A DNA stretch of 34,193 nt from a virus. Under the pieces are notes generated by a model that was not told where the DNA came from, did not search any database, and saw nothing but the letters and a program-made list of their open reading frames with translations. A program made the translations under genes and the position numbers. The stretch is from positions 1-34,193 of IMG/VR virus record IMGVR_UViG_3300025133_000361. One strand, written 5' to 3'. Below, in pieces: positions 1 through 31,861 of the stretch (its first letter is position 1; each line of letters begins with the position of its first letter).

Positions 1-96
1 CCCCTATTTTGTGCAAACTCACTACAATAACTGTGCCCCCCTGGCTGGGGTCAATCGATCTACCCCAGGGGTGGGGGAATACCAAGGGGGTCTGTT

Positions 97-471: not shown

Positions 472-485
472 GATTGACTTTTTTT

Positions 486-524: not shown

Positions 525-562
525 GGAAACCCCCAGTTTTCAACCCCCCAGGAGAAACTCAA

Positions 563-3371: not shown

Positions 3372-3735
3372 ATTCTGTATTTTGTGGTTTGTTCTTGTCT
3401 TGCTCCTGGCATACTTGCCAGGGTGCAGCACAGCTGATGTTGATGCAGCCAGATTCGATGGCTGGGCAGCTGCTGTGGCTGGTGCATCAAAGATGCCAAC
3501 ATCAAAGCCAACACCCACACCAACCCCAGATGGCAAGTGCATCAGCTGTGGTGGCACAGGGCAGGTTGGTGATGGTGTGATTTTCTCTGTGTGCCTTGAT
3601 TGCAATGGCACTGGGGTCACAGATGAACCGAAACCCAGCACCCCACCAACCACATGCACAGCAAACAGCTGCCAAGGCTCCTCAAGAAAAACTATTTTCA
3701 AGCGTAGACTCTTTTGGAGACTTAGGCGCAGATGA
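3361..3735 (+). CDS. Lipoprotein with DnaJ-like CxxCxGxG zinc motif
   Basis: This 124-residue protein begins with a hydrophobic signal (about residues 5-19) ending in the lipobox LPGC (Cys21), so it is probably exported and lipidated. A Pro/Thr-rich spacer (KPTPTPTP) follows, then CISCGGTG and CLDCNGTG, the paired CxxCxGxG motifs that form one zinc site in DnaJ-type cysteine-rich domains, and finally a Pro-rich segment and an Arg-rich tail. It overlaps the peptidase gene by 11 bases and the holin-like gene by four. A small Pro-rich phage lipoprotein next to a holin recalls an outer-membrane spanin, but the zinc motif is not typical of spanins. Confidence 0.7.
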   Translation: MADRFCILWFVLVLLLAYLPGCSTADVDAARFDGWAAAVAGASKMPTSKPTPTPTPDGKCISCGGTGQVGDGVIFSVCLDCNGTGVTDEPKPSTPPTTCTANSCQGSSRKTIFKRRLFWRLRRR

Positions 3736-4013
3736 ACACCACTATTGATTGGCAAACAGTAATTGCAAAGGTGCCAGAGCTGGCAGCCCTTGGGGGGATT
3801 GTGTGGATGTTTCTGAGGTATCTCAACACCAGAGACAAAGAGAGCAAGTCAACCACATCAAGCCAGCTGGGCTTGGTGGCTGACTGTGTTGACAAGATCT
3901 CAATCACCCATGAGCGAACCATTGACAGTCTTGACAGGAACACAGATATGTGTGGGCAGGTCAACACCAGACTTGACCAGCTGACAGAATTAGAAAGAAA
4001 GAGGCTGGGGTAG
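3732..4013 (+). CDS. Holin-like small membrane protein
   Basis: This 93-residue protein has a single hydrophobic helix (about residues 13-30, ELAALGGIVWMFLRYL) followed by a charged, heptad-like region (HERTIDSLDRN...TRLDQLTELERKRLG) that could form a coiled coil. This topology occurs in one-helix holins and in XhlA/BhlA-like phage lysis proteins. It lies directly after a peptidase and a lipoprotein and before the tail fibre genes, a usual place for lysis genes. There is no motif that proves holin function; it could also be an inner-membrane spanin partner. Confidence 0.55.
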   Translation: MNTTIDWQTVIAKVPELAALGGIVWMFLRYLNTRDKESKSTTSSQLGLVADCVDKISITHERTIDSLDRNTDMCGQVNTRLDQLTELERKRLG

Positions 4014-7075: not shown

Positions 7076-7388
7076 GCTTGATGCTGTGGCTTGTCTCTCT
7101 GTTGATGATGTTGAGGCATTCAAGATAGACCTCTCAAGCCATCTGGGTGATGACACCCTCTCAGGCAGCCCCACAGTGACCCTGGTGGCTGCTGACTCTG
7201 CTGTGACAATTGGCACACCAGCCAACAACACAGCCACATATACTGACCAAGATGGCAACACAGTGGCCATTGGCAAAGCTGTTGAGTTTACTTTTACCAG
7301 CACCAGCACTGGCAGCCACAGTCTGCTGATTAAGGCAACCACAGCAGCAAGAACAATCAACAGGCTCTTGAGTGTGGTGGTTGAATGA
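7065..7388 (+). CDS. Small beta-rich (Ig-like?) structural protein
   Basis: This 107-residue protein overlaps the previous gene by 11 bases and the terminase by four. It is Thr/Ser/Val-rich with alternating hydrophobic residues (PTVTLVAADSAVTIG, ATYTDQDGNTVAIG, EFTFTSTSTGSHSLLIKAT), consistent with an immunoglobulin-like beta sandwich, as in decoration or tail-associated phage proteins. No catalytic motif is visible. It could decorate the capsid or fibres; this is inference from composition and neighbourhood. Confidence 0.55.
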   Translation: MTIELDAVACLSVDDVEAFKIDLSSHLGDDTLSGSPTVTLVAADSAVTIGTPANNTATYTDQDGNTVAIGKAVEFTFTSTSTGSHSLLIKATTAARTINRLLSVVVE

Positions 7389-9445
7389 GCAAAGCAAAGG
7401 GCATCAGTCAAGAGCAGCATGCCAAGTATAAGGCAGCCAACAGCCAGCGCTGGTCTGATGCAGCCGCCCTGGCAAATGACTTGGGCTCTCTGCCAGAGCC
7501 AGCTGATGCTGCCCAAAGGGCAGCTTGTGGGGAGTCATTCCAGCTCTGGTGTGAGACCTACAGGCCAGAGGCTTTTTTTATGGGCTGGTCAGATGACCAC
7601 ATCAAGATTATCAAGCAGGTTGAGGCAACGGTCAGGGATGGTGGGCTCTTTGCCCTGGCAATGCCCAGAGGCTGTGGTAAGACAACCATTGTTGTCTCAG
7701 CTGCCATCTGGGCTTTGCTGTATGGGTATGCCAGATGGGTGTGCTTGATTGGTGCCACTGGCCCCAGAGCACAAAAGCTGCTGGGCAGCATCAAGACTGA
7801 GTTGCGTTTCAATGCTGCCCTGGCTGCTGACTTCCCAGAGGTCTGTGGCCCCATCATCAAGCTGGAGGGCAAAGCCATCAGAGCCAACAGCCAGACCCAT
7901 GGGGGAGTGCCCACCAACATCATCTGGCACAAAGATGAGCTTGGGCTGCCATTTATCGAGGGCTCCCCATCATCTGCTGGGATTGTCACAGTGGCTGGGA
8001 TCACAGGGGACATCAGAGGGCAGCAAAAGACCACACAAGATGGCAGGGTCATCAGGCCAGACTATGTCATCTTGGATGACCCACAGACCAGAGAGAGTGC
8101 CAAGTCTGGCACCCAGACTGATGACAGACTCAGCACTCTCATGGGTGACATCTTGGGGCTGTCTGGGCCAGGGGTCAAGATTTCTGGGGTGATGCCCTGC
8201 ACAGTCATCAGCAGAGGAGACATGGCTGACCAGATTCTTGACAGAGACCAATGCCCTGAGTGGCATGGTGAGAGGACCCAATTATTATATGGCTGGCCCG
8301 TCAAGATGGATCTCTGGGGAAAATATCAAGAGATGAGAGAAGAGGAGTTTCGCAACTCAACAGACGAGACAGGCAGCTTGGCTTATTACATGAACAACCA
8401 GCCAGAAATGGACATGGGATGTCAAGCAGCTTGGGATGAGAGACACACAGAAGATGAGGCATCTGGCATACAACATGCCATGAATCTGTTTTACAGAGAT
8501 GAGGCAGCCTTCTGGGCAGAATTTCAGAACCAACCTCTTGAGACCTCACAAGATGACACCATCTCTGAGGATGAGCTGCTGCAAAGAACACACCCAGTGG
8601 CAAAGGGCAGCTTTCCCACTGGTGGTGAGCTGATGACTGCCTTTGTCGATGTGCAAAAAGACTTGCTCTATTATTGTGTGATTGCTTGGAAACCAGATTT
8701 CACAGGGTGGGTGGTTGACTATGGGGCATGGCCAGACCAGAAAACCACAAATTTTAGATTGAGTCAGGCAAAAAAGACCATCGGCAAACAGTGGCCAGGG
8801 CAGTCTCTTGAGGTTGTCTTGACTAAGGCTCTCAATGCTTTGGTTGATGACCTTTGCAGCAGGAGCTGGCAGAGAGAGGATGGGGCAGAGCTGTCAATTT
8901 CAAGATTGTTGATTGATGCCAATTGGGGTCTGAGCAGAAATATTGTTTACGAGTTTTCGCGCAACACACCACACCGCGCTGTGGTGATGCCATCCCATGG
9001 CAAATATGTTGGTGCCAGCAATGAGCCTCTCAATGCAACCATTGCAAAGAGGTCAGGCAAAAGGATTGGAACCCATTGGAGAATACAAAAAGCAAAAGAC
9101 AACCCAGCCCAATATGTGCTGTATGATGCCAACCACTGGAAAAGTTTTCTATTCTCAAGATTTGCCACAGAGCCAGGGACAGCAGGAGCACTGACTTTGT
9201 TCCAAGCATCACCCAGGATACATAAAACATTTGTCAGGCATCTCAAAGCTGAGTACCCAGTCAGGACCTCTGGCAGAGGCAGAGAGGTTGATGAGTGGAA
9301 ACTGAGACCAGACAGGCCAGACAACCACTGGCTTGATTGTGCAGTGGGCTGCTGTGTGGCTGCATCAATTCAATCATGTGACACCACAGCAGCAAAGCCA
9401 AAGACCCCCAAGAAAAAAAAGAGCAGAGGAGTGACCTATTTATGA
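7385..9445 (+). CDS. terL: Terminase large subunit
   Basis: This 686-residue protein is the DNA-packaging motor ATPase and nuclease. The ATPase Walker A is MPRGCGKT at about residues 93-100 and Walker B is YVILDDPQT at about 227-235. The C-terminal half has acidic, RNase H-like nuclease strands: LMTAFVDVQKDLLYYCV, then SRLLIDANWGL, then DNHWLDCAVGC near the end. The length fits large, GpA-like phage terminases. No small terminase subunit is evident; the small zinc-ribbon gene downstream or an unknown gene may take that role. CpG is very rare (5 in the first 600 bp by eye). The family call is strong. Confidence 0.92.
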   Translation: MSKAKGISQEQHAKYKAANSQRWSDAAALANDLGSLPEPADAAQRAACGESFQLWCETYRPEAFFMGWSDDHIKIIKQVEATVRDGGLFALAMPRGCGKTTIVVSAAIWALLYGYARWVCLIGATGPRAQKLLGSIKTELRFNAALAADFPEVCGPIIKLEGKAIRANSQTHGGVPTNIIWHKDELGLPFIEGSPSSAGIVTVAGITGDIRGQQKTTQDGRVIRPDYVILDDPQTRESAKSGTQTDDRLSTLMGDILGLSGPGVKISGVMPCTVISRGDMADQILDRDQCPEWHGERTQLLYGWPVKMDLWGKYQEMREEEFRNSTDETGSLAYYMNNQPEMDMGCQAAWDERHTEDEASGIQHAMNLFYRDEAAFWAEFQNQPLETSQDDTISEDELLQRTHPVAKGSFPTGGELMTAFVDVQKDLLYYCVIAWKPDFTGWVVDYGAWPDQKTTNFRLSQAKKTIGKQWPGQSLEVVLTKALNALVDDLCSRSWQREDGAELSISRLLIDANWGLSRNIVYEFSRNTPHRAVVMPSHGKYVGASNEPLNATIAKRSGKRIGTHWRIQKAKDNPAQYVLYDANHWKSFLFSRFATEPGTAGALTLFQASPRIHKTFVRHLKAEYPVRTSGRGREVDEWKLRPDRPDNHWLDCAVGCCVAASIQSCDTTAAKPKTPKKKKSRGVTYL

Positions 9446-20716: not shown

Positions 20717-20719
20717 CTA
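20714..20719. other. Zero-spacing convergent gene junction
   Basis: TGA of the plus-strand gene (20714-20716) is followed immediately by CTA, the reverse complement of the TAG ending the minus-strand primase gene (20717-20719). There is no room for an intergenic bidirectional terminator, so transcripts of the late and early blocks either overlap or stop at signals within coding sequence. Confidence 0.8.
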
Positions 20720-22894
20720 GCTCAGAGTATATGCTGTGCCTCTGCCATCAGACTCAACCCTCAGCTCCCCAGACTCTTGCAGGGTCAGCACTATTTCATT
20801 GAGAGCCCTGGCTGGCAGCCTCACATGGCGCAGCAGGTAGGATCTGCCACAGAGTTGGTTCCTCTTGGTGAATGCACCCACAATGTCAATGACCTTTTTT
20901 CTGTGCTTCTCATACACACTGCCACCAATGACCTCATCAGCCATCTTTGTGCAAAATGAGTCAGTGGCCCAGATTATAAAATCACAGGCCCATCTGGCTG
21001 CACTGTCATCAACCATGGGAAGCATGGGGTCTTCTGAGCATGCATAGACCATGGCCAGCCGTCTTGCTTTCTCGATTGACCTTGACCAGATGGTGCTGTT
21101 TTGAGGGTGGTTCTCATGGGTGTCTGACTGCCTGACAAGATCTGCAAAGATGGCTGATGCAGCTTTGGTTTCTTGTATCAGTCTTGGCTCTGGGTTGATG
21201 TCTGAGAGGTTGCCACCAGCTTGAAACTCTTGCCAGATGGCAACTGTGTCAAGGATTGACTGGGGTGGGGGCAGCTCCTCTTTGTCTTGCTTTTTTCCTC
21301 TTGGGCCAGTATCAACCACCAGCAGCCTGCCAGCAAAGCCATCAAAAAGATGGCTCTCCTCAAGAGATTGCCAAAAGTGCTCAGCAACTGTCAGCCCCCA
21401 AAAAGATGCACAAGGGTGCTGCACTTCTCGATTGTATTTGCTGTCAGCCATGCTTTTGTGCTTCCACAAACAACCCGTTTCGTTCCACAGCTCAAGCAAG
21501 ACCTCCTGCACAGCATGCAAATGAGCATTCCCAGGCTTGTCTGCTGACTTGGCAAGAAACCTACCAAACTCATCCCAGAGCCAGACCTTGCTGGGGCTCT
21601 GCATCAAGTCTTGGGCCAGGGCTGACTCTGATGCAACCTTGCCACCATATAAATCAGTCAGGCCAGCCAGCCCAAGGATTTTCTTGAGGCAGGTCTGTGG
21701 GGCTTGCTTGCCACCACCAGATGGTGCCAGTGCCACCATATACAGATTAGTTCTCTGGCCAGACTTGTCTCTGACTTTCCTACCACACAGAGCAGCCTGC
21801 AAAGCAATTCCCCCCATCAATGACAGGATTGGCTGCACCACATTATTCTGTGAGTCAATCCACTCAGCAACCTCACCAATGAACCCTGGCACATGCAGCA
21901 GATGGGCAGGGAAAGCCAGCTCTTTTTTCTTGGGCTTGGCAATCAGCTCATCAATGTAAGCCTCATATTGCCCCAGCTCAGATGCCTTGACTGGTTGGTG
22001 AGAGTCAGCAAAAGATTGCTGAGTCAGCAGCCAGCCTCTGGGGCCATCAGCTTTGGTTGCTTGGTCTACTTTGTGCTCCAGCTCTCTCAAAGACCATGGG
22101 GGCTGACAGGTCTGATTGTATATGTCTTGCAGTATTTGCAGAGCAGCTGCTGGTGACAGCTCAAAGCCATTGACCAGAACACATGCAATTCTAAACAAGG
22201 TGCCATGCCCATCTTGGCCAGAGATTGCTGGGGGGTATTTGGCAATGTAAGCAACTGCCCTGGCAGCCACATCAGTCTGCCCTGGCTCTGGGTGACACAC
22301 ACTGGCTGAGCCACTGGCTGTGACTGTGCTGGGGGCTGACTGGGCTTGCTTTGATGGGTATGTGGCGTTGAGCCAGTCAAGACCATCTTGGCAGTGGGCC
22401 AGGGGCATGGCTCCCAAGAAGTCAACATCACCAGTCACAGTAAAATATCTGCCCTGATGGTAGACCTCGATCACACCAACAGAGTCTGGCACTTTGACTC
22501 TTCTGCCCTTTGGGCTGCCAGGGTCTGATGTGCAAAACAGCTTGAGACCATTGCCACTGGGGCTGATTTCTGCATAGGTGGGCAGCTGTCTGATGACCTC
22601 TTTGGCCCATGGCTGCAAGACCCCATCAACAATGGCATCATCGAGGTCAACACCAAAAAAGTCATCATCAGGAGAAAAGACAAAGCCAATCCCAGACCTT
22701 GATGAGCCTGCTTTGTAAGCTGCTGTTGTGATGTCATCAAATGTTGACCAGTGTGCAGGGTCTGTGGTGCTGGCTCTGATGCCACTGGCTTGGTAGGGCA
22801 CTTTGGTTGGCTTTCCTCCTCTCTCCTCATAGCGCCAGAGGACCCACTGAGCTGCATCTTTCATCTGGGGTGGTATGTGATTGTATTTAGACAT
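20717..22894 (-). CDS. Primase-polymerase fused to DUF3987-type helicase-like domain
   Basis: This 725-residue protein probably primes and drives phage DNA replication. The N-terminal 200 residues form an archaeo-eukaryotic-type primase-polymerase: catalytic GVDLDD at 81-86, SPSGNGLKLF at 111-120 and EVYHQGRYFTVTG at about 143-155. A linker domain follows (about 210-310). The C-terminal part resembles DUF3987: LYMVALAPSGGGKQAP (a P-loop-like GGGK), KVWLWDEFGRFLA (Walker B-like DE) and FAGRLLVVDTG. It is the last gene of the minus block and overlaps the preceding small gene by eight bases. A separate superfamily 2 helicase lies two genes upstream. Confidence 0.85.
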   Translation of the reverse strand: MSKYNHIPPQMKDAAQWVLWRYEERGGKPTKVPYQASGIRASTTDPAHWSTFDDITTAAYKAGSSRSGIGFVFSPDDDFFGVDLDDAIVDGVLQPWAKEVIRQLPTYAEISPSGNGLKLFCTSDPGSPKGRRVKVPDSVGVIEVYHQGRYFTVTGDVDFLGAMPLAHCQDGLDWLNATYPSKQAQSAPSTVTASGSASVCHPEPGQTDVAARAVAYIAKYPPAISGQDGHGTLFRIACVLVNGFELSPAAALQILQDIYNQTCQPPWSLRELEHKVDQATKADGPRGWLLTQQSFADSHQPVKASELGQYEAYIDELIAKPKKKELAFPAHLLHVPGFIGEVAEWIDSQNNVVQPILSLMGGIALQAALCGRKVRDKSGQRTNLYMVALAPSGGGKQAPQTCLKKILGLAGLTDLYGGKVASESALAQDLMQSPSKVWLWDEFGRFLAKSADKPGNAHLHAVQEVLLELWNETGCLWKHKSMADSKYNREVQHPCASFWGLTVAEHFWQSLEESHLFDGFAGRLLVVDTGPRGKKQDKEELPPPQSILDTVAIWQEFQAGGNLSDINPEPRLIQETKAASAIFADLVRQSDTHENHPQNSTIWSRSIEKARRLAMVYACSEDPMLPMVDDSAARWACDFIIWATDSFCTKMADEVIGGSVYEKHRKKVIDIVGAFTKRNQLCGRSYLLRHVRLPARALNEIVLTLQESGELRVESDGRGTAYTLS

Positions 22895-23198
22895 TTGGGG
22901 TATTCTCTAGTTTTGAGGGGTTGGCTGGTCTGATGCTGGTGATGGGGTGGGCTCTCATATACTCAACCCTAGCTGCAAGCCAGTCTTGGCACTTGGCAAG
23001 CTGGTCTTTGCTCATGGGCTGGCTGTGAGTACCGAACCCTTTTGTGTGGTCCCCACCAACATTCTCACCAACCATCAAAGCCAAGATTTCTGACTCATCT
23101 GGTGTGGTTGGCAGGTGGTGCTCAATGCCATGAGCTGTGACATATCTTGAGGTGGCACTATTCTTGGGCTTGGTTGGTCGATCAAAATGGGATGTCAT
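22887..23198 (-). CDS. Unknown small protein between helicase and primase
   Basis: This 103-residue protein overlaps the helicase gene by 17 bases and the primase gene by eight, so it belongs to the replication operon. It is hydrophilic with one helical segment (SKDQLAKCQDWLAARVEYMRA). I see no recognised motif. Its place between two replication genes suggests an accessory replication role, but nothing in the sequence proves it. Confidence 0.65.
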   Translation of the reverse strand: MTSHFDRPTKPKNSATSRYVTAHGIEHHLPTTPDESEILALMVGENVGGDHTKGFGTHSQPMSKDQLAKCQDWLAARVEYMRAHPITSIRPANPSKLENTPNV

Positions 23199-24831
23199 CT
23201 TCTTGGTTCTCCTCTGTCTCTGGGATTGCTGGGAGCATCAGGTTGCTGTGCTTCTTGATGCTGTCAAATTTGCCACTGATGTCAACTGAGATGGTGCTGG
23301 GCTCTTTGAGCTGGCCAGAGTTGCCAACCTTGGCAGCTGCCCTGGCAGTCTGTGGGCAGGGCTGGTCTGACCTCTTTGCCCACCATGCCAGAGCCTTCTC
23401 AAGACCATACCCAGAGTGCTCAACACAGACCCATTCTGAGATGGGGTATTGTAGGCACTCAATGTGGTAATCAACCCTCAGGGTCTTTGGCACTGTGTCA
23501 TCAGCACCCTTCTTGGTGTGCTCAGAATAACTGACTTCCTCAACCTCATAATCTTTGGGGGGCTGACTCAGGATGTCTGCCACTGATGCCTCTGTGTCAT
23601 GGGTGGGGTTGCTGTCAACCTCAAAGACCTCACCACACTCTGGGCAGACAGCCACAGAGATTGGCACAACCTCTCTGCATGCTTTGCAATGTTTGCCAGC
23701 TGGTGGGGCATTCTTGCCAGAGCCATTTGGCTTGGGCTTGATGGCCATTTTGTCAATTGGCCCATGCCTCTCAATGTTGCCACCAAAGTCAAGGATGAGG
23801 CAGTCAGCTTTGCCAGGGGCAACTCTGAGACCTCTGCCACACATTTGATAGTAGAGACCAGGGCTGAGGGTTGGTCTCAGCATGGCAACACAGTCAATGT
23901 TGGGAGCATCAAAGCCAGTGGTGAGCACATCAATGTTGATGAGGTATTTGATGGCACCCTCTTTGTAGTATGCCAGGGTTGATGCTCTCTCTGTTGGTGA
24001 GGTCAGGCCATCAACCATAGCCACAGATGCCTCTGGGGCCAGGAAGGCAATCATCTCAGCAACTTGGCTGGCATGCTCTCTGCCAGCACAAAAGATGAGC
24101 ACTGATTTTCTGTCTGTGGTCTTGCTGAGCATCTCAGCAACTGCCTCAGCAACCACCAGCCCATCAGACAGCTCTTGGTTGAGCTGGCTTGCAACATATT
24201 CACCAGCCCTGACAGCAACCTCAGAGAGGTCTGGCTGTGCCTCTGCATGCTTGCTGATGAGTGGGGAGAGGTAGCCATCTGCAATGAGAGGCTTGATGGG
24301 GATGCTGTGACAGATTGTGTTGAGCACTCGATCTGGCCCACAGACCAGACCCTCTTTGAGTCTGTAGGGTGTGGCAGTCAGCCCCACCACTCTCACAGCA
24401 GGATTGATGAGCTTTGCATGAGTCAGGAAGGTCAAAAACATGCCATCCCCATCAGCTGGGATCAAGTGAGCCTCATCAACCAAGATGACATCAAAGGCAC
24501 CCAGCTCATCGGCTCTGCCATGAACCGATTGTATGCCAGCCACAATGCAGCTGTGCTCTGTGTCCCTGCTGGAGAGCCCAGCAGAATAGATGCCCACATC
24601 AACCATGGGGGCCAGGGTCTTGATTTTCTCAGCATTTTGCTCAATTAGTTCTTTCCGATGACAGAGGATGAGCACTCTGCCAGACCAGTCAATCACATCT
24701 TTGACCAGCTGGGCAATGATGAGAGATTTGCCAGCCCCAGTGGGTGCCTCAATACAGGGGTTGGTGGTTGTGCTTTGTATGTGCTGCCAGCAGCTTGCAA
24801 CTGCCTCAGCTTGGTATGTCCTTAATTTCAT
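23182..24831 (-). CDS. Superfamily 2 DEAH-type DNA helicase
   Basis: I start this 549-residue protein at ATG 24831 (MKLRTYQAEAV), the normal N-terminus for this family; a longer frame upstream overlaps the previous gene and adds nothing conserved. Motifs are Walker A APTGAGKS (29-36), DEAH box VILVDEAHLIP, GLTATPYR (motif III), VLTTGFDAPNID (motif V) and YYQMCGRGLRVAPGK (motif VI). A four-Cys zinc finger (CKAC...CPECGE) follows, then a poorly conserved C-terminal tail that may bind partners. Such SSL2-like helicases unwind DNA at replication forks or during recombination in many phages. Confidence 0.9.
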   Translation of the reverse strand: MKLRTYQAEAVASCWQHIQSTTTNPCIEAPTGAGKSLIIAQLVKDVIDWSGRVLILCHRKELIEQNAEKIKTLAPMVDVGIYSAGLSSRDTEHSCIVAGIQSVHGRADELGAFDVILVDEAHLIPADGDGMFLTFLTHAKLINPAVRVVGLTATPYRLKEGLVCGPDRVLNTICHSIPIKPLIADGYLSPLISKHAEAQPDLSEVAVRAGEYVASQLNQELSDGLVVAEAVAEMLSKTTDRKSVLIFCAGREHASQVAEMIAFLAPEASVAMVDGLTSPTERASTLAYYKEGAIKYLINIDVLTTGFDAPNIDCVAMLRPTLSPGLYYQMCGRGLRVAPGKADCLILDFGGNIERHGPIDKMAIKPKPNGSGKNAPPAGKHCKACREVVPISVAVCPECGEVFEVDSNPTHDTEASVADILSQPPKDYEVEEVSYSEHTKKGADDTVPKTLRVDYHIECLQYPISEWVCVEHSGYGLEKALAWWAKRSDQPCPQTARAAAKVGNSGQLKEPSTISVDISGKFDSIKKHSNLMLPAIPETEENQEDDIPF

Positions 24832-25261
24832 GGGGGAGATTTTCCTTTTTTGCTTTGGTTCTAATATCAGCAACCATGGCTGTGATTGTCTGACGATGAC
24901 AGCCAAGACTGGTTGCAATTTCTGAGTGGGTGTTGCCAGAGAGCAGCATCACAGTGATGGTGGTTTGGTTTGGTGTGAGATGACAGCCCAGCCAGTCAAC
25001 TGCATCAGCTGACCAGCTGGGGTCTGTGTCATCAACAAAGTCAGAGACATGCCAGGGCAGCACTGGCAGCTGCTTGGCATGAACCCTCAGCTCCTTTTGC
25101 AGGGCTCTGAGCCAGACAACCTTGGTTGATGGGTTGGCTGTCTCAAGCATCATCAGAGCCAAGTCTTGGTAGGCATCAATTTGCTCAACATGGGCAAAGA
25201 TTGACGCCAGCACTCTTGACCTTGAAACCAGCCAACCCTCATATGCTGCCAAGTCAACCAT
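24806..25261 (-). CDS. HTH protein, probable phage regulator
   Basis: This protein of 151 residues starts at ATG 25261, overlapping the previous stop (TGATG); an upstream TTG is possible. Most of it is helical with no known motif. The C-terminal region LTPNQTTITVMLLSGNTHSE, then IATSLGCHRQTITAMVADIR (about residues 95-135), matches a LuxR/sigma-region-4-type helix-turn-helix. It may bind DNA as an activator or act in replication initiation. It sits inside the replication operon rather than beside the divergent control region, which argues against a classical lysis-lysogeny repressor. Confidence 0.65.
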   Translation of the reverse strand: MVDLAAYEGWLVSRSRVLASIFAHVEQIDAYQDLALMMLETANPSTKVVWLRALQKELRVHAKQLPVLPWHVSDFVDDTDPSWSADAVDWLGCHLTPNQTTITVMLLSGNTHSEIATSLGCHRQTITAMVADIRTKAKKENLPHEIKDIPS

Positions 25262-25728
25262 CAGCTCTTTGCCCAAGGGGCAGGGCTGTTGGCTGGGTCA
25301 GATGCAGTCTGCTGGGGTGCAGACTGCTGGGGTGCATCACCGATGCGCCGGTAGGCAACAATGTTGTTGCCCATCTGGCCATTGCCTTGCTTCTTCACTC
25401 GCAACTCAATCATCATGGGGATGTTGTGCAGTTGCTCAGTCTTGCTGGGGTTGAGGATGCCCAGTGCCTCAGTGATGGCTTTGAGATTGCTCTGTGCAAT
25501 GCCCTTTACCTTGGGGTCTGGGTGGTAAACTGAGAGATTGTCAAAGACGAGCCTATTGGTGTGTGGCCCATCAACCACTGCAAAGACTAACTTGATGTAC
25601 TCATGCCCAGCTTGGCTTGTGGGTCTGTCACTGTCTTTGATGATGACAGCGTAGGACCCATTGGGCAGGGGCTCAAAACTTGTCTGCACATCTTCTGCAT
25701 CTGATGTGTTAAATCCAATATCAGCCAT
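25261..25728 (-). CDS. DUF669-type, probable single-strand DNA-binding accessory protein
   Basis: I start this 155-residue protein at ATG 25728 (MADIGFNTSDAED), with AAGAGAG upstream. The sequence FEPLPNGSYAVIIKDSD, GHEYIKLVFAVVDGP, FDNLSVYHPDPKVKGIAQSN and IPMMIELRVKKQ is typical of DUF669, a family next to Sak-type recombinases and thought to bind single-strand DNA. It ends in a Pro/Gln-rich tail with PAPWAKS, like the acidic/hydrophobic tips of SSB proteins but not acidic. A 15-bp tandem repeat (QQSAPQQTA region, about 25300-25330) lengthens the tail. The ATPase next to it fits this role. Confidence 0.75.
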   Translation of the reverse strand: MADIGFNTSDAEDVQTSFEPLPNGSYAVIIKDSDRPTSQAGHEYIKLVFAVVDGPHTNRLVFDNLSVYHPDPKVKGIAQSNLKAITEALGILNPSKTEQLHNIPMMIELRVKKQGNGQMGNNIVAYRRIGDAPQQSAPQQTASDPANSPAPWAKS

Positions 25729-25730
25729 GG

Positions 25731-26495
25731 TCAGCTCTCTTTCTTGGCACTGGGTGCCACAGTCTTGGGGGTAAAGTGCTGGGCATACGCTGCCCAATTA
25801 AAGTCAATTTCATCTGGCAGGTTGAGGCGGTTCTTTGCAACTGCTGTGGGTCTTGCAACCGTTCTCAAGACCCTCTTGCCACCATCAAGTGCCTTGGTGG
25901 TCTTGCGACCAAAGCCACCATCTTCTGTGGTTGTCAGCACTTTGAGATGAGCAAAAAGCATCTCGTCAGCCCACTCAAGCAAGAGGGCTGAGACATGCTT
26001 GTGCAGCTTGGGAACCCATCGGTCATAGTCAGGATTCTCAGGGTCTTTGTGGCTCTCAGTCTTGGCATGGGCAATAATGATGATGTGCATGCCTTTGGTC
26101 TGCCTGAGTGCATCAAGACCAGTCAAGACAGCTGAGAAGAGATTACATGCCAACACATAGCCCTTGCCATAACTGCCAGAGGCTTGCTCAATACTCTCAA
26201 CAGACTGCTGCTGACAGATTGACTCCCAGATGAGCCTCTCAAGCCAATCAGCTGAGTCAATGACCACAGCTTTATAGGTGTGCTCTTCTGTGTAAAGCTG
26301 GCCAATGTTTGTCATAACATCATCATAACTGGCAGCAATGTCAAAGCTGTGGCAGTCGATCTGCCCCAGCCCATCTTCTGTGGGCAAGAAGATGGCATCA
26401 GGGCACTGGCTGGCAATGGTTGATTTGCCAATGCCAGGGCCACCATAGATGACAGTTTTCCTTGGTAGCTGTTGTTTGCCTCGATTGATTTTCAT
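25731..26495 (-). CDS. RecA-like ATPase, Sak4/AAA_24 type recombinase
   Basis: This 254-residue protein has Walker A GGPGIGKST (18-26) and Walker B KAVVIDSADWLE (about 75-86), followed by HIIIIAHAKTES (sensor-like) and a C-terminal region of mixed helices. The pattern is that of phage Sak4 / AAA_24 proteins, which catalyse single-strand annealing or strand exchange with an SSB. Neighbours support this: a DUF669 protein downstream and a RecE-like nuclease upstream, together a complete phage recombination module. The start ATG 26495 is preceded by the conserved leader AGAGAGACCAAAGACC. Confidence 0.82.
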   Translation of the reverse strand: MKINRGKQQLPRKTVIYGGPGIGKSTIASQCPDAIFLPTEDGLGQIDCHSFDIAASYDDVMTNIGQLYTEEHTYKAVVIDSADWLERLIWESICQQQSVESIEQASGSYGKGYVLACNLFSAVLTGLDALRQTKGMHIIIIAHAKTESHKDPENPDYDRWVPKLHKHVSALLLEWADEMLFAHLKVLTTTEDGGFGRKTTKALDGGKRVLRTVARPTAVAKNRLNLPDEIDFNWAAYAQHFTPKTVAPSAKKES

Positions 26496-26520
26496 GGTCT
26501 TTGGTCTCTCTCTTTGGGGG
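26496..26520 (-). promoter_or_regulatory. Start-abutting leader repeat, gene ATG 26495
   Basis: On the minus strand the bases before the ATG read AAAGAGAGAGACCAAAGACC, then ATG. It is a copy of the leader whose consensus is AGAGAGAACCAAAGACCATG, with one A missing. Confidence 0.7.
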
Positions 26521-26531
26521 TGGGGGTGATG

Positions 26532-27389
26532 TCACAGGGTAATAATATCAGCAAAGCGCGAAGGCCAGATGTCATCTGCCAAACACTGCTTGTACTCATG
26601 CATGGTATTTCTATTTTGCTCCTCAGCTGCATCAAGGGTGGCTGCACTCATCTCAAAGACACCAACCTCAAAAGGCTCAGTTTTCTCAACTGCCACAATA
26701 TACACTTTGTATATCTCACCAGTCAGAGCTGCCACCATAGACCGATAGAAGGCCAGCTGGTGAGGGTAGCCAAAGATGTTGGCATCTCTTGCAAACTTAC
26801 AGGGATAGTGGGTGGTGTGGGCAGAGCCCAGGTCAGCACAGGTCTTGAGGTCAACAATCGTATTGTTGGCACTGTCAAGCCAGTCAATCTTGCTCTGGCT
26901 CTTGATGCCTTGCAGGGTGCCTCTGATGGTCAACTCTGGTCTGCCATATTCTGTGCCCAGCAGCTTGCTGGCTTCTGCATGAGTCTCAATGTGGTTGCTC
27001 ATACATTTTATTTTGTAATAGTCAGCCTCTTTGATGGGGCTCTTGCCAGCTTTGGTCAGCTCCTCAATCCACTCTGTATATCGTTTTGAGGCTGTGCCAA
27101 AAGGCTTGTCAGTCTTGGGATTGACTGGGCCATCTGAGATTGAGTAGGCAGCATGAAAAGCATCTGCACCCTCAAGAATGTGGATGTGTGCAGCTGTGCC
27201 AAAGGCAAAGGCTGGGCTCTGGTGCCTCTCAACCAGACCCAGCTGGGATCTGTGGTAGCCCATTGGGCTGTGCCTAAAAGATTGCAGATTGTGGGCTGTC
27301 ATCCAATTGGCATAGTCAGCAAAGTATTCTGCATCAGTCAGATTGTGGAGAGATGCCAGGGCAGTCTCCCAGGGCTGTGGCTTAGTCAT
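26532..27389 (-). CDS. RecE-like PD-(D/E)XK exonuclease
   Basis: I begin this protein of 285 residues at ATG 27389 (MTKPQPWETALAS), which overlaps the stop of the preceding gene; the longer open frame to 27752 runs over that gene and has no conserved sequence. Visible motifs are FGTAAHIHILE near 64-73 (GxxxHxxLE), E152, KIDWLD with D169, DLKT at 180-183 (the D-x-K of the fold) and HQLAFY at 210-215. These match the RecE/YqaJ-type nuclease used with annealing recombinases. It would resect DNA ends for the Sak4-like protein encoded downstream. Confidence 0.78.
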   Translation of the reverse strand: MTKPQPWETALASLHNLTDAEYFADYANWMTAHNLQSFRHSPMGYHRSQLGLVERHQSPAFAFGTAAHIHILEGADAFHAAYSISDGPVNPKTDKPFGTASKRYTEWIEELTKAGKSPIKEADYYKIKCMSNHIETHAEASKLLGTEYGRPELTIRGTLQGIKSQSKIDWLDSANNTIVDLKTCADLGSAHTTHYPCKFARDANIFGYPHQLAFYRSMVAALTGEIYKVYIVAVEKTEPFEVGVFEMSAATLDAAEEQNRNTMHEYKQCLADDIWPSRFADIITL

Positions 27390-27756
27390 TAAGGTGGCAC
27401 TCCAAGAAGAGGGTATTGGTGGGGGAAGCAGACAGCAGAGGACAAACAAAGTCAGCTGTGACTGCCAGCAGCTCTTGCAGCTCATCATCAACCAAGATGA
27501 AACTTGGCTCATCACAACGCCAGTCATCAAGGCAGAGGGCAACTCTGTCGGGAGCTGGCTCTGCCCACAGGCTGAGGGTGATGTCTGTGGTTGTCTCTGG
27601 GATGTCAAAGTGCTTGCCAAGAGAGGCACAGAGCACAATTGGCAGCTCTGGGCATTCTGTGACCCAGGAGCAACCACAGGGCTCAATGGTGCCTCTGCTG
27701 TTGATGCTAAAAGATGCACCCCCATGAGTCTTGACAAATGAGAGGTTGGCAATCAT
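27382..27756 (-). CDS. Unknown protein in the recombination operon
   Basis: This 124-residue protein overlaps the nuclease gene by eight bases and the NDT-like fusion gene by four, which supports its reality. It is beta-rich, with scattered Cys and Trp (IEPCGCSWVTECPELPIVLC, ALCLDDWRCDE). A Cys-rich start recalls a zinc or metal site but the spacing is irregular. No family is recognised. Confidence 0.6.
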   Translation of the reverse strand: MIANLSFVKTHGGASFSINSRGTIEPCGCSWVTECPELPIVLCASLGKHFDIPETTTDITLSLWAEPAPDRVALCLDDWRCDEPSFILVDDELQELLAVTADFVCPLLSASPTNTLFLECHLND

Positions 27757-28601
27757 GCCTCAACCTCATGCTCTCTCTGCATTGCCTCAGCAATGTCAGC
27801 ATAGTTGCAGAGGTCATCATAATTGTCTTTGTGGTAGCAGATGCGCATTCTGTTTAGTTTGAGAGCACACATCATCAGAGCCACCACATGCCCTGGCAGT
27901 GGGATCTGGTTGTTGATGTTGTCAGCATGGGGCTGCAAGAGGCTGGCCCACATCATTGCAATGCCTTCGTGATTTTCTTTGGGTGGGCCATATACTTTGC
28001 CTCTCTCCTCAGTGATGGCTTGACGATGGGCAGCAGTGGTCTGGGGCACATCACCAAAGAGCTTCTCCCATGTGGCATTGGCATCTTCTGCCTCTTGATG
28101 AGATGCAATGATGCTCTCAACTGTGTGAGATGGCTCAACTGGCCCAGGTGTCAGCTCTGGCAACTCTGGCAGGTTGTCTGGCAGCTCAGCTGCATCTGGT
28201 CTGGCCAGCCTGCACTCTGCACACATCTGGTCAAGCTGGCCCAGGTCTTTGCAGTGGGCCAGATGGTCAATCAGCTTTGACAGAGGCTCATCGTCAAAAG
28301 TGCAAAAGACAGGAATGCCCAGCTGTAATGCCAAACTGACCTCATCATCTGCCCCAGTGCTCTCACCATGCAACCTGATGAGAAGGTCAGCAGATGCAAC
28401 CCATGGCAGGCACGATGCCATCCAAGTGCTGTGTGGGATGTCTTGACCCCCAGGCAGCATCATTGTCAGGCCAGGGTTGAGTGGGGCAAAGCCAGCTGCC
28501 AAGAGTTGGCGCTGTGCCTCACAGCTGTTGTCAAAGTTTGTCCCATCAGGGTCAAGGGTGATGGGGCAGGCAATGTAGACTTTGAGAGGTGTCTTTGTCA
28601 T
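27753..28601 (-). CDS. NDT-like (DUF4406-type) domain fused to DUF6378-like domain
   Basis: I start this 282-residue protein at ATG 28601 (MTKTPLKVYIACP). Residues 1-105 resemble nucleoside 2-deoxyribosyltransferase-like/DUF4406 proteins: VYIACPITLDPDG, ADLLIRL and STGADDEVSLALQLGIPVF, where Glu87 aligns with the nucleophile in the SxGxxxE motif. An acidic Pro-rich linker (ELPDNLPELPELTPGPVEP) leads to a C-terminal domain, residues ~200-282: TEERGKVYGPPKENHEGIAM and VVALMMCALKLNRM...DNYDDLCNYADIAEA. It resembles the phage DUF6378 family. A role in nucleotide metabolism is likely but unproven. The conserved leader precedes the ATG. Confidence 0.7.
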   Translation of the reverse strand: MTKTPLKVYIACPITLDPDGTNFDNSCEAQRQLLAAGFAPLNPGLTMMLPGGQDIPHSTWMASCLPWVASADLLIRLHGESTGADDEVSLALQLGIPVFCTFDDEPLSKLIDHLAHCKDLGQLDQMCAECRLARPDAAELPDNLPELPELTPGPVEPSHTVESIIASHQEAEDANATWEKLFGDVPQTTAAHRQAITEERGKVYGPPKENHEGIAMMWASLLQPHADNINNQIPLPGHVVALMMCALKLNRMRICYHKDNYDDLCNYADIAEAMQREHEVEA

Positions 28602-28630
28602 GGTCTTTGGTCTCTGGGGGTGGGGGTTGG
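28602..28630 (-). promoter_or_regulatory. Start-abutting leader repeat, gene ATG 28601
   Basis: Minus strand: AACCCCCACCCCC, then AGAGACCAAAGACC directly before ATG. It retains the C-rich 5' part and the CAAAGACC end; the GAGAGAA part is shortened. Confidence 0.7.
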
Positions 28631-28653
28631 TAATAAAAAGAGGGTTGGTTTCC

Positions 28654-29016
28654 TTACAGTCTGGCTGGGGCTGATCGGTCAAAGGGCTGACCAGCTGGGG
28701 TCTCTGTGGCCCATGCTGCCAGCTCTCTGTATATCTTTTTTTTGAGGTTGGTGTCAATCAGGTATTTTTTCAGCACTGGCCAGATGGTGCAGATGCACTC
28801 ATGGGGATGGCTGAGGGTGGGGGTGTGCTCATCAGCTTTGTATGAGCAAAAGATTGCTGGCAGGTGTCTGTCAATCCATAGCTCAAGCTGGCCAGTGCTC
28901 ATCTGCTGAGCTGCCCCATCTAATCGAAAAGCCAGGGCATCAGCCCAGCTGGCATGGGGGCTCCTGGCTGACATCAAGGGCACTGTGGGCCATTTGTGTT
29001 GGTCTGGGTCTGTCAT
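28654..29016 (-). CDS. Unknown small early protein
   Basis: This protein has 120 residues from ATG 29016, directly after a leader copy. The sequence is mixed helical (WADALAFRLDGAAQQMS, LELWIDRHLPAIF, VLKKYLIDTNLKKKIYREL) and has no known motif. It contains A AAA AAG (minus strand, near 28735-28745), the classic -1 slippery heptamer, but the shifted frame ends after about 17 codons and looks accidental. Its place among the leader-bearing early genes suggests a host-takeover or regulatory role. Confidence 0.6.
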   Translation of the reverse strand: MTDPDQHKWPTVPLMSARSPHASWADALAFRLDGAAQQMSTGQLELWIDRHLPAIFCSYKADEHTPTLSHPHECICTIWPVLKKYLIDTNLKKKIYRELAAWATETPAGQPFDRSAPARL

Positions 29017-29040
29017 GGTCTTTGGTTCTCTCTGGGGTTG
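29017..29040 (-). promoter_or_regulatory. Start-abutting leader repeat, gene ATG 29016
   Basis: Minus strand: CAACCCC then AGAGAGAACCAAAGACC, immediately followed by ATG. This is a full-consensus copy. GAGAGA, the only Shine-Dalgarno-like run, lies ten bases before the ATG. Confidence 0.75.
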
Positions 29041-29085
29041 ATGTTGCGTTTCCTCGGGGGTTGTCAATATGTCCCAAGGTTTCGG

Positions 29086-29721
29086 TCAGTTGGGGTCACA
29101 GCTGATGCAGCCTCTCTGGCAGCACTTGGTGGGCTCAGTGGTGCCATCATGCAACTGCCTCAGCTGCTGATGACCATTGCTGTCAATGTAGTCAGCCCTT
29201 GACCACATCACATACCCCTCTGACACATCGGTGTGAAACTCCTCACCACTCATATCAATGTCATTCTGCCAGAGCAGCTCAACCATGTTGGCTGCAAGCC
29301 ATGTGGCATCTCTTGGGGGCTGGGTGTCTTTGTTCCAACAGCTGACAGACTGCCTGACCTCCTCACCATTAAATGAGAAGGTCAGTCTGGCTTGCCAGCC
29401 AGGGTTGCTGACCATTGCTGTGACTGGATAAAAGATCTCAGCTTTGGTCAGGATTTCATTTTTGAATTGCTTGCTCATGGTCTTTGGTTCTCTCTTGGGT
29501 TGGTGGTTGCAGCAGCTGCCAGCACACTGAGAGACCTCATCTCTCAGCTGCTGGATGACCTCACCCACTGTGCTCTCACAGATGCAGTGGGTGTCATCAA
29601 ATTTATTGACCCAGCCATCTGCCAAGTGCAGCCAGTGGGACTCACCATCATACTCATAACTGTCAATTCTGGCGTCTTTATTGGCCAGGGCTTGCAGTGT
29701 GGTGCTGTATCTTTGTGCCAT
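29086..29721 (-). CDS. Unknown early protein, apparent fusion across an internal leader copy
   Basis: From ATG 29721 (MAQRYSTTLQALANKD) the frame stays open for 211 residues to 29086. At residues 72-81 it translates a full leader copy as NHQPKREPKT, directly followed by a second start (MSKQFKNEI, ATG 29478). So the frame looks like two once-separate small genes, of about 71 and 130 residues, joined because the first lost its stop. The second part has YPVTAMVSNPGWQARLTFSF and MWSRADYIDSNG; its C-terminus is Cys-rich (CCQRGCISC). Either the fusion, or both the fusion and the short 130-residue form, may be made. No family is recognised. Confidence 0.6.
   Translation of the reverse strand: MAQRYSTTLQALANKDARIDSYEYDGESHWLHLADGWVNKFDDTHCICESTVGEVIQQLRDEVSQCAGSCCNHQPKREPKTMSKQFKNEILTKAEIFYPVTAMVSNPGWQARLTFSFNGEEVRQSVSCWNKDTQPPRDATWLAANMVELLWQNDIDMSGEEFHTDVSEGYVMWSRADYIDSNGHQQLRQLHDGTTEPTKCCQRGCISCDPN
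29479..29509 (-). promoter_or_regulatory. Internal leader repeat before ATG 29478
   Basis: Minus strand: AACCACCAACCCAAGAGAGA then ACCAAAGACC and ATG. It is a full-consensus copy located inside the open frame of 29086-29721, which supports independent initiation at 29478 or a past gene fusion. Confidence 0.7.
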
Positions 29722-29750
29722 GGTCTTGGTTCTCTCTTGGTCTTGGGGTT
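29722..29750 (-). promoter_or_regulatory. Start-abutting leader repeat, gene ATG 29721
   Basis: Minus strand: CAACCCCAAGACCAAGAGAG then AACCAAGACC and ATG. It is the short variant with CCAAGACC instead of CCAAAGACC. Confidence 0.7.
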
Positions 29751-29762
29751 GAGGTTGGTGGT

Positions 29763-29945
29763 CTACTTGGCTGGGGTCTCTTTGACGATGGTGCAATATT
29801 TCTTCTCAACAAAGATGCCCACATGCTGGCTGGCCATCATGTAGTGATTGCTTGAGATGGTGCAGTGCAGCATGGCATACGTGCCATCTTTGATGCTGGG
29901 GCAGTTGCTGACTTTGATTTGCATGGTCTTGGTCTTGGTTGTCAT
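29763..29945 (-). CDS. Unknown 60-residue early protein
   Basis: From ATG 29945 this gives 60 residues (MTTKTKTMQIKVSNCPSIKD); an internal ATG at 29924 would give 53. The peptide TTKTKT before the second Met is encoded by a partial duplication of the leader end (ACCAAGACC twice), so the true start could be either. The body is beta-rich (GTYAMLHCTISSNHYMMASQ). No family is recognised. It overlaps no other gene. Confidence 0.5.
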   Translation of the reverse strand: MTTKTKTMQIKVSNCPSIKDGTYAMLHCTISSNHYMMASQHVGIFVEKKYCTIVKETPAK

Positions 29946-29967
29946 GGTCTTGGTTCTCTCTGTGGGG
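29946..29967 (-). promoter_or_regulatory. Start-abutting leader repeat, gene ATG 29945
   Basis: Minus strand: ACCCCACAGAGAGAACCAAG then ACC and ATG. A truncated second copy (ACCAAGACCAAGACC before ATG 29924) lies 21 bases downstream. Confidence 0.7.
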
Positions 29968-30001
29968 TCTGTGTGGTGGCTGTTGATGTGAGTGGTGTGA
30001 C

Positions 30002-30508
30002 TTAGTTGATGTTGGCAAAGACAGACAGGGCTCTCTCTCTTGATGCCATGCATGGGATCTGGCAGACAAGACCAGACTTTGATGAGAGCCTGACTGCAAA
30101 AAGATCTTCTTCGACACAGTAACCGTAGACAGCAATCAGACCCTCTTTGGTGGTCTTTTGTTTGAGGGTCTCAATCTTGATGGGGTGGTTGTGCACATAC
30201 CGTTCTGAGAAGGCTGGCAGCTCCTCTGGCAGAGGGTAGCTGTCTTGATGTTGACCAACCAGCACATCCCACTGGTCTTGGGGCAGGTCAGACTCATCAC
30301 CCTGCACAACAACAAAGCCAGTGCCCCAGACCTCACCATCTTTGTAATCGTAGACAGCAATCACAAGAGTGGTCTCTGGGAGATAATCAAACTTGATTGC
30401 CCTTGCTGTCTCAGCTTTGTCTTTGCAGTTGAGCACTGCCACACAGTGGGCAGTCAGCTGGCCATCTTTGACTGAGTAAATTTCTGCATTTGGGAAGGTC
30501 ATTGTCAT
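30002..30508 (-). CDS. Unknown early protein
   Basis: This 168-residue protein starts at ATG 30508, immediately after a leader copy (ATG 30502 is an alternative). It is beta-rich with an unusual alternation of aromatic and acidic residues (LVIAVYDYKDGEVWGTGFVV, LIAVYGYCVEEDLFAVRLSS); two similar AVYxYxxxE segments suggest a duplicated fold. There is no signal peptide or recognised domain. Confidence 0.6.
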   Translation of the reverse strand: MTMTFPNAEIYSVKDGQLTAHCVAVLNCKDKAETARAIKFDYLPETTLVIAVYDYKDGEVWGTGFVVVQGDESDLPQDQWDVLVGQHQDSYPLPEELPAFSERYVHNHPIKIETLKQKTTKEGLIAVYGYCVEEDLFAVRLSSKSGLVCQIPCMASRERALSVFANIN

Positions 30509-30530
30509 GGTCTTGGTTCTCAGTGGGGTG
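30509..30530 (-). promoter_or_regulatory. Start-abutting leader repeat, gene ATG 30508
   Basis: Minus strand: ACACCCCACTGAGAACCAAG then ACC and ATG. It is the short variant, with the GAGAGA run reduced to GAGA. Confidence 0.65.
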
Positions 30531-30579
30531 TTGGTGTTGGTGGTCAGCCAGGGCAGCCCCCTGGCTCTCTGTGGGTGGT

Positions 30580-31527
30580 CTATTTCATCATGCCATCATC
30601 GTCAACCCAGCCCAGCTCCCAGCCAAGAGAGATGACCTCAGCAGCTGGCTTTCTGGCTGTCTGCCAATAGGTTGCGACTAGGCTTTTTTCATTGCTGTTG
30701 GTCAGCACATTGCCATAACTGTCAGACAGCTTTGCCAGGATGGCTTTTTTTGTGGCTTTGACCTTCTTGGGGGCAGCTGGCTTGGCTGGGGCTGTCTCAA
30801 TTTCTGCCAGCACTTGTGCAATGGCACAGCCATTTGCTCTGCCTTGGGCAACTGCACTCTCAAAGGTCTCTGGCTCATCAGCTGTCTTGGTCTGGGCTTG
30901 CTCATCAGCAGCAAAGTCAGCAGACTCACATGCCTCACAGCCTGCCTCATGTGTGGCACACTCTTTGGCTGATGTGCAGGGCTGGCCACAGCTGGTGGTT
31001 GCAACAACCTCTGGCTCAACAATCTGGCTGGTGTGCCAAGCAGCTCTTGTGGCTTGGAATCTGGCAGCCTTTGCAGCCCACTCAGCAGCACCAGCCCCAC
31101 CAAACTTTGCTGTTTTGGGGCTGACAGCCTTTGCAGCCCACATGGCTGAGGTCTGTGTGGCAATGTCTGCCACTGATGCATGAAAGATGTTTTTTTGCTC
31201 TTGGGTCAGGCTGCCAAGGTAGTCAATGGTGGCTGAGTCAATCATGGCAGGGTAGCTTGCCAACTCGATTGTCTTGGCAAGAGCATCTGGGCCATGGTAG
31301 CCATTGCCATCAAGCACAAAATCACAATAGCTGGCATGAGCAGCCTCATCATCTGCTGCATAGGTGCCCATCTCAATTTCTGACTCAAGGCAACACATCA
31401 GGTCTGCAATGGCCAGGGCTGGGGATGTCTCAGGGGTCTTGCCATCTCTCTTGGCTTGCTCAGCTGCATTGTAGAGGTCAGCAGCAGCTGTGAGCAGTTG
31501 GTCTCTTGTGGTGGCTTGGCTTGTCAT
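30580..31527 (-). CDS. Unknown early protein with Cys-rich middle
   Basis: This protein has 315 residues from ATG 31527, after a divergent leader copy. The N-terminal half is helical (RDQLLTAAADLYNAAEQAKR, ALAIADLMCCLESEIEMG). Two similar WAAKA segments (TSAMWAAKAVSPKTAKFGG and AEWAAKAARFQATRAAW) come from a 60-bp direct duplication near 31065-31140. A Cys cluster follows (TSCGQPCTSAKECATHEAGC), then an Ala/Lys/Pro-rich hinge (PAKPAAPKKVKATKKAIL), and a C-terminal domain with QTARKPAAEVISLGWELGWV. It is the first gene of the minus block, next to the control region. No family is recognised. Confidence 0.6.
   Translation of the reverse strand: MTSQATTRDQLLTAAADLYNAAEQAKRDGKTPETSPALAIADLMCCLESEIEMGTYAADDEAAHASYCDFVLDGNGYHGPDALAKTIELASYPAMIDSATIDYLGSLTQEQKNIFHASVADIATQTSAMWAAKAVSPKTAKFGGAGAAEWAAKAARFQATRAAWHTSQIVEPEVVATTSCGQPCTSAKECATHEAGCEACESADFAADEQAQTKTADEPETFESAVAQGRANGCAIAQVLAEIETAPAKPAAPKKVKATKKAILAKLSDSYGNVLTNSNEKSLVATYWQTARKPAAEVISLGWELGWVDDDGMMK
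31065..31140. repeat. Short direct repeat within an early gene
   Basis: The sequence GCAGCCTTTGCAGCCCAC occurs at about 31065 and again, as ACAGCCTTTGCAGCCCAC, at about 31125. It encodes the two WAAKA segments of the 30580-31527 protein. Confidence 0.6.
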
Positions 31528-31550
31528 CGTTTTGGTTCTCTCAGTTTTGT
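31528..31550 (-). promoter_or_regulatory. Divergent start-abutting leader repeat, gene ATG 31527
   Basis: Minus strand: AAAACTGAGAGAACCAAAAC then G and ATG. It keeps GAGAGAACCAAA but changes the last bases (AACG instead of GACC). Confidence 0.6.
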
Positions 31551-31839
31551 GGGATGTGGTCTCTTGGGGTTTCTCCCCCACACACATCATCAGCTTCTCA
31601 GCACCAACAATCAACACCATTCTGGTTATTTTATGAAAAACCGAGCATCTTTTTTGCTGGTGGGGGGTGGGCTGCTGGTGCAGGGTGTGCCACCAGCTGG
31701 GGGTGAGATACCAGAGGTTGCCTCAGTGGTGGGGGTTGGTCTGTTAAGATTTTCCTAACATGGGGGCCTACTGGTGGGTGGTTTGGGGGGGGTGTTTGTC
31801 GAATGTTGGTGAATGCTGGGGAGGGGAGAAAAACCAATA

Positions 31840-31861
31840 ATATACTATATATATAGTATAT
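31840..31861. repeat. 22-bp AT palindrome
   Basis: Perfect inverted repeat with no spacer, the lowest-GC point of the window. In a genome otherwise near 50% GC it marks a DNA-melting or protein-binding site; it is the strongest candidate in the window for an origin or a strong promoter core. Confidence 0.75.

Follow-up and report, generated by a model that had tools for sequence, protein, structure and literature searches.

Short repeats tied to start codons are known as start-associated sequences (SAS) from cluster K mycobacteriophages (PMC3203893) and cluster EF Microbacterium phages (PMC7302621), and in the literature that we searched, mostly without subscription papers, reports of them were found only for phages of Actinobacteria. 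In Salmonella mRNAs, ACA motifs boost initiation with loose spacing (PMC3879156). Phyla with small fractions of Shine-Dalgarno (SD) genes include Planctomycetes and Cyanobacteria, and the non-SD genes of several phyla, Cyanobacteria among them, have C adjoining the start and C/A near position -15 (PMC5397173). Here we describe a C/A-rich leader repeated in front of minus-strand genes of a virus, IMG/VR record IMGVR_UViG_3300025133_000361, the whole of which (34193 bases) constitutes the window, and we propose with moderate confidence that it is an SD-independent translation-initiation leader for early genes. Neither this leader nor the C/A leaders of picocyanophages considered below were found described in the same literature.

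The window was scanned with the consensus AGAGAACCAA(A)GACC, allowing at most two mismatches and run as the two patterns AGAGAACCAAAGACC and AGAGAACCAAGACC. On the minus strand between 24700 and 32000 nine matches were obtained, eight of them ending exactly at an ATG, and 200 dinucleotide-preserving shuffles gave on average 0.165 matches and 0.01 ATG-abutting matches (largest values 3 and 1), which bears out the near-identical, start-abutting repeat that an earlier note had reported at eight minus-strand starts. Four copies, at starts 29945, 29721, 29478 and 29016, have no mismatch, the copy at 30508 has one, and those at 31527, 28601 and 26495 have two each. The plus strand of the whole window holds no match at this threshold. 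Equal occurrence away from start codons, which would have spoken against the repeat, is ruled out by the rarity of off-start matches, namely 29930, within a local duplication, and 24615, in coding sequence. The genes behind the leader are indeed unrelated, as judged from translations, Pfam and PHROGs. When a sequence-only profile trained on the eight window copies and three copies from a relative, L005, was used in a search space of 1.3 million bases, all window copies scored E 3e-4 or better.

The carriers comprise seven open reading frames (ORFs) and one internal in-frame start (29478), and their distribution obeys a simple rule. Every minus-strand gene with an upstream gap of at least 36 nucleotides (nt) has the leader (7/7: 31527, 30508, 29945, 29721, 29016, 28601 and 26495), and none of those overlapping or nearly abutting the preceding gene has it (0/7: 27756, 27389, 25728, 25261, 24831, 23198 and 22894), a split expected by chance once in 3432 (1/3432). 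The smallest gap, 36 nt at 26495, is filled entirely by leader. That the leader marks only a subset of genes, as had been noticed, is explained because the leaderless minus-strand genes overlap or abut the gene upstream and are coupled to it. Two relatives, L005 and L006, share 85-91% DNA identity with the window over the common parts, and L005 obeys the same rule, its leaders at 464, 3969 and 6051 all standing before gapped genes and its coupled starts lacking them. The gap rule in the window and in L005 therefore points to independent ribosome loading. The leaders, their genes and the neighbouring features are as follows (lengths in amino acids, aa).

31528..31562, minus strand: leader of gene 31527-30580, ending ACTGAGAGAACCAAAACG (ACG), the weakest of the eight; 2 mismatches, profile E 2.6e-5
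30580..31527, minus strand: first leader gene, 315 aa, no family match
30509..30543, minus strand: leader of gene 30508-30002; 1 mismatch, with a predicted GC hairpin AGCCAGGG-GGCTG-CCCTGGCT just upstream
30002..30508, minus strand: leader gene, 168 aa, no family match
29946..29980, minus strand: leader of gene 29945-29763; 0 mismatches, within a 41-nt T-free run
29763..29945, minus strand: leader gene, 60 aa, with a second ACCAAGACC-ATG inside, at 29924
29722..29756, minus strand: leader of ORF 29721-29086; 0 mismatches
29086..29721, minus strand: leader ORF, 211 aa, holding by translation another complete leader, with an in-frame ATG at 29478
29479..29513, minus strand: internal leader; 0 mismatches, in-frame start 29478, would-be product of 130 aa
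29017..29051, minus strand: leader of gene 29016-28654; 0 mismatches
28654..29016, minus strand: leader gene, 120 aa, no convincing family match
28602..28634, minus strand: leader of gene 28601-27753 (CCAACCCCCACCCCCAGAGACCAAAGACC); 2 mismatches, replaced by another leader subtype in L005
27753..28601, minus strand: leader gene, DUF4406 and DUF6378, nucleotide-metabolism-like (Pfam, PHROGs)
26532..27756, minus strand: coupled, leaderless genes for a 124-aa protein and a DUF3799 exonuclease (starts 27389), from ORF positions
26496..26528, minus strand: leader of the Sak4 gene; 2 mismatches, identical at L005:6018-6053
25731..26495, minus strand: last leader gene, Sak4-like single-strand annealing ATPase (AAA_24; Pfam, PHROGs)
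20717..25728, minus strand: coupled, leaderless genes for DUF669 SSB-like, HTH-like, helicase, 103-aa and primase-like proteins, from overlaps and upstream sequences
31840..31861, no strand: perfect 22-bp palindrome ATATACTATATATATAGTATAT, in a candidate promoter/operator region of the minus-strand operon

Physically, the leader is about 30-35 nt long, nearly free of T and C/A-rich, with a conserved AGAGA(G)-(A)CCA box and mostly ending in ACC before the AUG. Over the 30 nt before the ATG of gapped genes, C and A make up 84% and the mean number of T is 0.6. Folding of positions -40 to +15 gave a mean minimum free energy (MFE) of -1.1 kcal/mol at leader starts, compared with -12.7 kcal/mol for random same-strand 55-mers and -8.9 kcal/mol for plus-strand starts. 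Mean pairing with the anti-SD sequence was -3.8 for leaders, compared with -2.5 for random sequence and -6.2 for plus-strand genes, of which many carry an AGGAGG-type site; when only gapped genes were compared, the values were -3.7 for early leaders and -5.6 for late genes. The SD-like core of SAS (GGGATAGGAGCCC), complementary to the 3' end of 16S rRNA, was looked for in the leaders and is absent; they contain no GGAG. Further, between the GAGA box and the ATG lie about 11-12 nt in the window, 5-6 nt at L005:464 and 3969, and 2-3 nt in the picocyanophage locus L076; such variability is unfit for an SD helix and suits an unstructured landing tract.

The window as a whole is about 51% GC, with CpG at 0.13 and TpA at 0.32 of expectation and with arginine encoded mostly by AGA/AGG. 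This depletion of CpG and TpA is extreme for a double-stranded DNA phage, and is also seen in L006 and in part of L005. Conceivably, DNA so poor in CpG and TpA might by itself make C/A-rich spacers alike, and the two depletion values are what such a by-product would start from; nevertheless, dinucleotide-preserving shuffles keep the composition and yield no repeat, and C/A leaders also occur in picocyanophages with near-normal CpG (0.81-0.99), so that we regard this explanation as strongly disfavoured and extremely improbable.

On these grounds, a translation element is the best supported of the three options raised in the earlier note (translation control element, RNA-binding-protein site, operator of an early regulon), because the leader is fixed to the ATG, T-free, predicted to be unstructured, and confined to genes that coupling to an upstream gene could not reach. 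We envisage that it would act at the level of the mRNA, where a C/A-rich unstructured tract would load ribosomes on early cistrons without a strong SD helix, wherever coupling to the preceding gene cannot reach a cistron, and that it would raise initiation in the way known for enterobacterial ACA/CA-rich elements. Selection may have combined with the spread or exchange of cassettes made up of gene and leader to keep the copies nearly identical, as the junction in L005 described below might illustrate. Read from sequence, the proposal draws on position, repetition, the gap rule, composition, predicted unstructuredness, weaker anti-SD pairing than in late genes and recurrence in picocyanophages.

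Several points weigh against this proposal. The predicted lack of structure is partly a consequence of base composition. GAG-type pairing of the leaders lies slightly above random (-3.8 vs -2.5), and a weak SD contribution to leader function is possible. C/A-richness alone does not account for the uniform AGAGA-ACCA box, whose near-identity would also be compatible with a specific binder, or with copies that were duplicated recently and spread as cassettes. The other SD-free repeats occur in a different type of virus, and the likeness may be convergent. Finally, the sample consists of one virus and two informative relatives, with naive ORF calls, and some of the loci used had been chosen for containing the motif.

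Considering the uniformity of the box, which exceeds what a general C/A requirement demands, the leader could instead be an mRNA regulator site, whose AGAGA-ACCA box would be bound by an RNA-binding protein, of the phage or of its host, or else by a GU-rich small RNA that switches the early genes jointly, the C/A tract serving only as an accessible platform. The letters differ between phages and repeat within each, as for a co-evolving factor, and the GU-rich small RNA GcvB usually targets CA-rich start regions (PMC3879156). However, L005 holds two subtypes with different box-to-ATG spacing simultaneously, no candidate regulator was identified, and the plus strand's lack of any match at up to two mismatches means that the window does not encode any long complementary minus-strand RNA. 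The RNA-binding-protein option thus stays under consideration as an unlikely one. Still more tentatively, phages of low-SD hosts might run two start codes, an early SD-free C/A box and a late classical SD, with a trans factor or ribosome state that reads the box setting an early translational regulon; we offer this as a speculation with small chances of being right.

The operator or early-promoter option of the earlier note fares worse. Repeated inverted repeats upstream of starts are found in cluster O and EG phages (PMC4351075, PMC7302621), and DNA operators of this sort, whether phage repressor or terminator-like sites comparable to stoperators or cluster O palindromes, could be suspected here. 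The leader, on the contrary, is non-palindromic, occurs in a single orientation and reaches the ATG within about a base, and the only striking palindrome, at 31840-31861, lies ahead of the whole operon; we consider such operators very improbable. Inverted repeats of the extended SAS kind are lacking, a hairpin standing just upstream of only one leader, that of 30508, and Rfam gave 0 matches in the window at gathering score. A promoter reading was rejected, since the leader offers no T from which a -10 box could be built and takes up the whole of the 26495 gap; the sites are also strung along an apparent single long operon, which disfavours an operator or early-promoter element. The stretch 31801-31861, just upstream of the first leader gene, is by far the TA-richest spot of this TA-poor genome, and with its 22-bp palindrome it is a candidate promoter, operator or origin.

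L003 and L004, with 99.97% identity, represent the same virus, and the informative comparison for leaders before homologous genes, the criterion used for SAS, comes from a single relative, L005. There the leader of the 26495 (Sak4) gene is unchanged letter for letter, and that of the 28601 homologue is replaced by a variant, AACCCCAACACAAAGAGAGAACCA-ATG, which is used twice and arrives with new genes. Homology of L005 to the window begins at the ATG of the 28601 homologue; the DNA upstream of this point is unrelated throughout and includes a DNA methylase (PF01555), a helicase-like ORF and a DNA polymerase III beta clamp. This upstream module (1-3950) looks foreign because its observed/expected CpG is 0.65, vs 0.16 in the remainder. 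In this single case, the leader is also the point at which modules join. More distant Sak4 relatives that were tested have no such repeat, and searches with the 28601 gene and the L005 clamp for closer relatives returned only L004/L005. The possibility that relatives would lack the repeat at homologous positions, named in the earlier note as a refutation, has a mixed though favourable outcome: L005 retains the 26495 leader and has a variant at 28601, and the distant Sak4 relatives are without it.

The L005 junction raises the question of whether the repeats are mainly recombination joints, shared linkers for the exchange or capture of early gene cassettes with no special role in expression. 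The abrupt start of homology at the 28601 ATG, next to unrelated and compositionally foreign DNA (CpG 0.65 vs 0.16), fits this, as does the finding that most leader genes have no homologue among the loci compared. Against it, there is one such junction only, the leader subtype switched with the module, so that the copies are not simply identical homology blocks, and the exact ATG register, T-freeness and gap rule demand a role in translation start. We judge this explanation improbable. As to wider affinities, the gene order exonuclease-Sak4-SSB-helicase-primase matches planctomycete prophages at about 26-54% identity, yet Sak4 is 40% identical to that of Synechococcus phages; the exact leader pattern was absent from 246 genomes sampled from the planctomycete phylum.

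Some of the starts proposed earlier need correction. ORF 29721-29086 runs through 29478 in frame, with no stop between, so 29478 is not a separate gene start; the internal leader is translated as HQPKREPKT (...CCNHQPKREPKT-MSKQF...), and the ORF may have arisen when two leader genes fused by stop loss, or it may contain a nested start with its own product. The supposed weaker copy at 29924 is a local ACCAAGACC duplication, seven codons inside the 29945 gene, with 4 mismatches, and that at 25728, AGAAAGAGAGCTGACC-ATG, lies two bases past the upstream stop and fails the two-mismatch threshold. A further candidate, 23198 (GAGGAGAACCAAGAAG-ATG), was rejected, having 3 mismatches, lying inside the upstream gene and being lost in L006. 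Elsewhere in the window, about 370 residues in the N-terminal half of the gpA-type terminase (7385-9445, 686 aa) correspond to about 270 positions of the phrog_38 profile, which suggests an insertion.

Similar leaders were found in picocyanophages. In L076, six minus-strand genes stand behind CACCACCACC..GAGAGAGACC-ATG or, once, CCAAAGAGAGAACCA-ATG, and L248, a picocyanophage contig related to L076, also has leaders of this type; the two have in common a GAGAGA-ACC box closely similar to that of the window. Outside its training set the profile scores L076 and L248, with E 0.007-0.085 for the better copies, and similar scores were otherwise given only by L011, L013, L033, L037 and L045, loci fetched because their box lies within coding DNA or ahead of very short ORFs. 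By its terminase, L076 shares 81% identity with the isolated Synechococcus phage S-SRP02, in which the early genes at 10903, 11692, 12103 and 13986 start after CCAACAACCACCACCACC-type tracts and the late genes have GGAGG. The leader of S38-C3 reads CCAACCAACCAACGGACTCAAACCA-ATG and, by eye, that of S31-C1 reads CACGACAACACC..AAACC; among relatives sharing the ArdC gene, a C/A tract runs into the ATG in 20 of 27, counted by eye from the printed starts. Early C/A leaders with phage-specific letters are thus common in these picocyanophages. Directly before C/A tracts in L076, L160 and L161 stand long GC hairpins in which TGCACTG...TCTCTGCAG recurs, its paired arms enclosing a small internal loop, for example at L076:2921 and 1868 (minus), L161:12026 and L160:39765 (minus); they look similar to processing sites of the kind that RNase III cuts.

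Wider scans returned little else. Exact-box matches to AGAGAACCAA(N)GACCATG outside this virus, among 2.9 million viral contigs, were rejected as leaders, the ORFs behind them being no more than 2, 11 or 62 codons long. Matches to CAAAGAGAGAACCAATG mostly belong to a conserved coding stretch (...KEPKREPMMF...) and were likewise dismissed; the sequence stands at a seemingly real gene start only in L005 (2 copies), L076 (1) and L073 (1). At 833-849 of L073, a 37% GC contig, AAGAGAGAAC occurs twice, the second time as CAAAGAGAGAACCA-ATG before a 415-aa ORF, and a TATAAATA-like sequence precedes this copy. When phage records were searched with the leader by blastn, only chance-level matches came up. 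In a scan of 243 loci for leader pairs, the only SD-free start-abutting pairs worth following, besides those of this virus and L005, were in L076 and S38-C3, the other pairs being SD, coding or chance matches.

How start codons are chosen in low-SD bacteria is an open question, for which an SD-free start signal repeated eightfold, and only where coupling is impossible, constitutes a natural experiment. Because isolated Synechococcus phages show this architecture too, it could be tested in culture. The architecture can also serve as a marker of true start codons in the annotation of such genomes, and it extends start-associated repeats beyond actinobacteriophages.

Compared with known systems, the leader shares with the 17-18 bp palindromes of cluster O and EG phages (PMC4351075, PMC7302621) its repetition in short intergenic gaps upstream of starts, but those are palindromic and vary in distance to the ATG, and the leader does neither. 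Stoperators and operators, palindromic or asymmetric protein sites not fixed to starts, likewise differ from a non-palindromic element that abuts the ATG in 8 of 9 matches. The likeness to SAS drawn in the earlier note is apt: in both, near-identical copies (about 10 or more per genome in SAS, eight here) lie in a single orientation immediately upstream of the starts of unrelated gene families and mark only a subset of genes. SAS are, however, 13-bp GGGATAGGAGCCC / GGGAAAGGACCCC sequences with an SD core, half of the cluster K copies being accompanied by 17-bp inverted repeats (extended SAS, ESAS), whereas the leader is C/A-rich and T-free with neither SD core nor inverted repeat; it works like SAS yet is not a member, the SD-like core being absent. 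The leaders of S-SRP02, S38-C3, L076 and their relatives are alike in being repeated C/A tracts of about 20-30 nt that run into the ATG of early or lysogeny genes. These phages are T7-like podoviruses, unlike the window virus with its gpA-type terminase, portal and tape-measure genes; many of their tracts follow a long GC hairpin, and their genes are not homologous to those of the window. Enterobacterial ACA/CA-rich enhancers (PMC3879156) act beside a real SD in single host genes, whereas the leader is repeated through an operon and mostly SD-less; like them, it lies near the start codon without strict spacing, and its 84% C+A and MFE near zero agree with the ACA/CA-rich, unstructured character of such elements.

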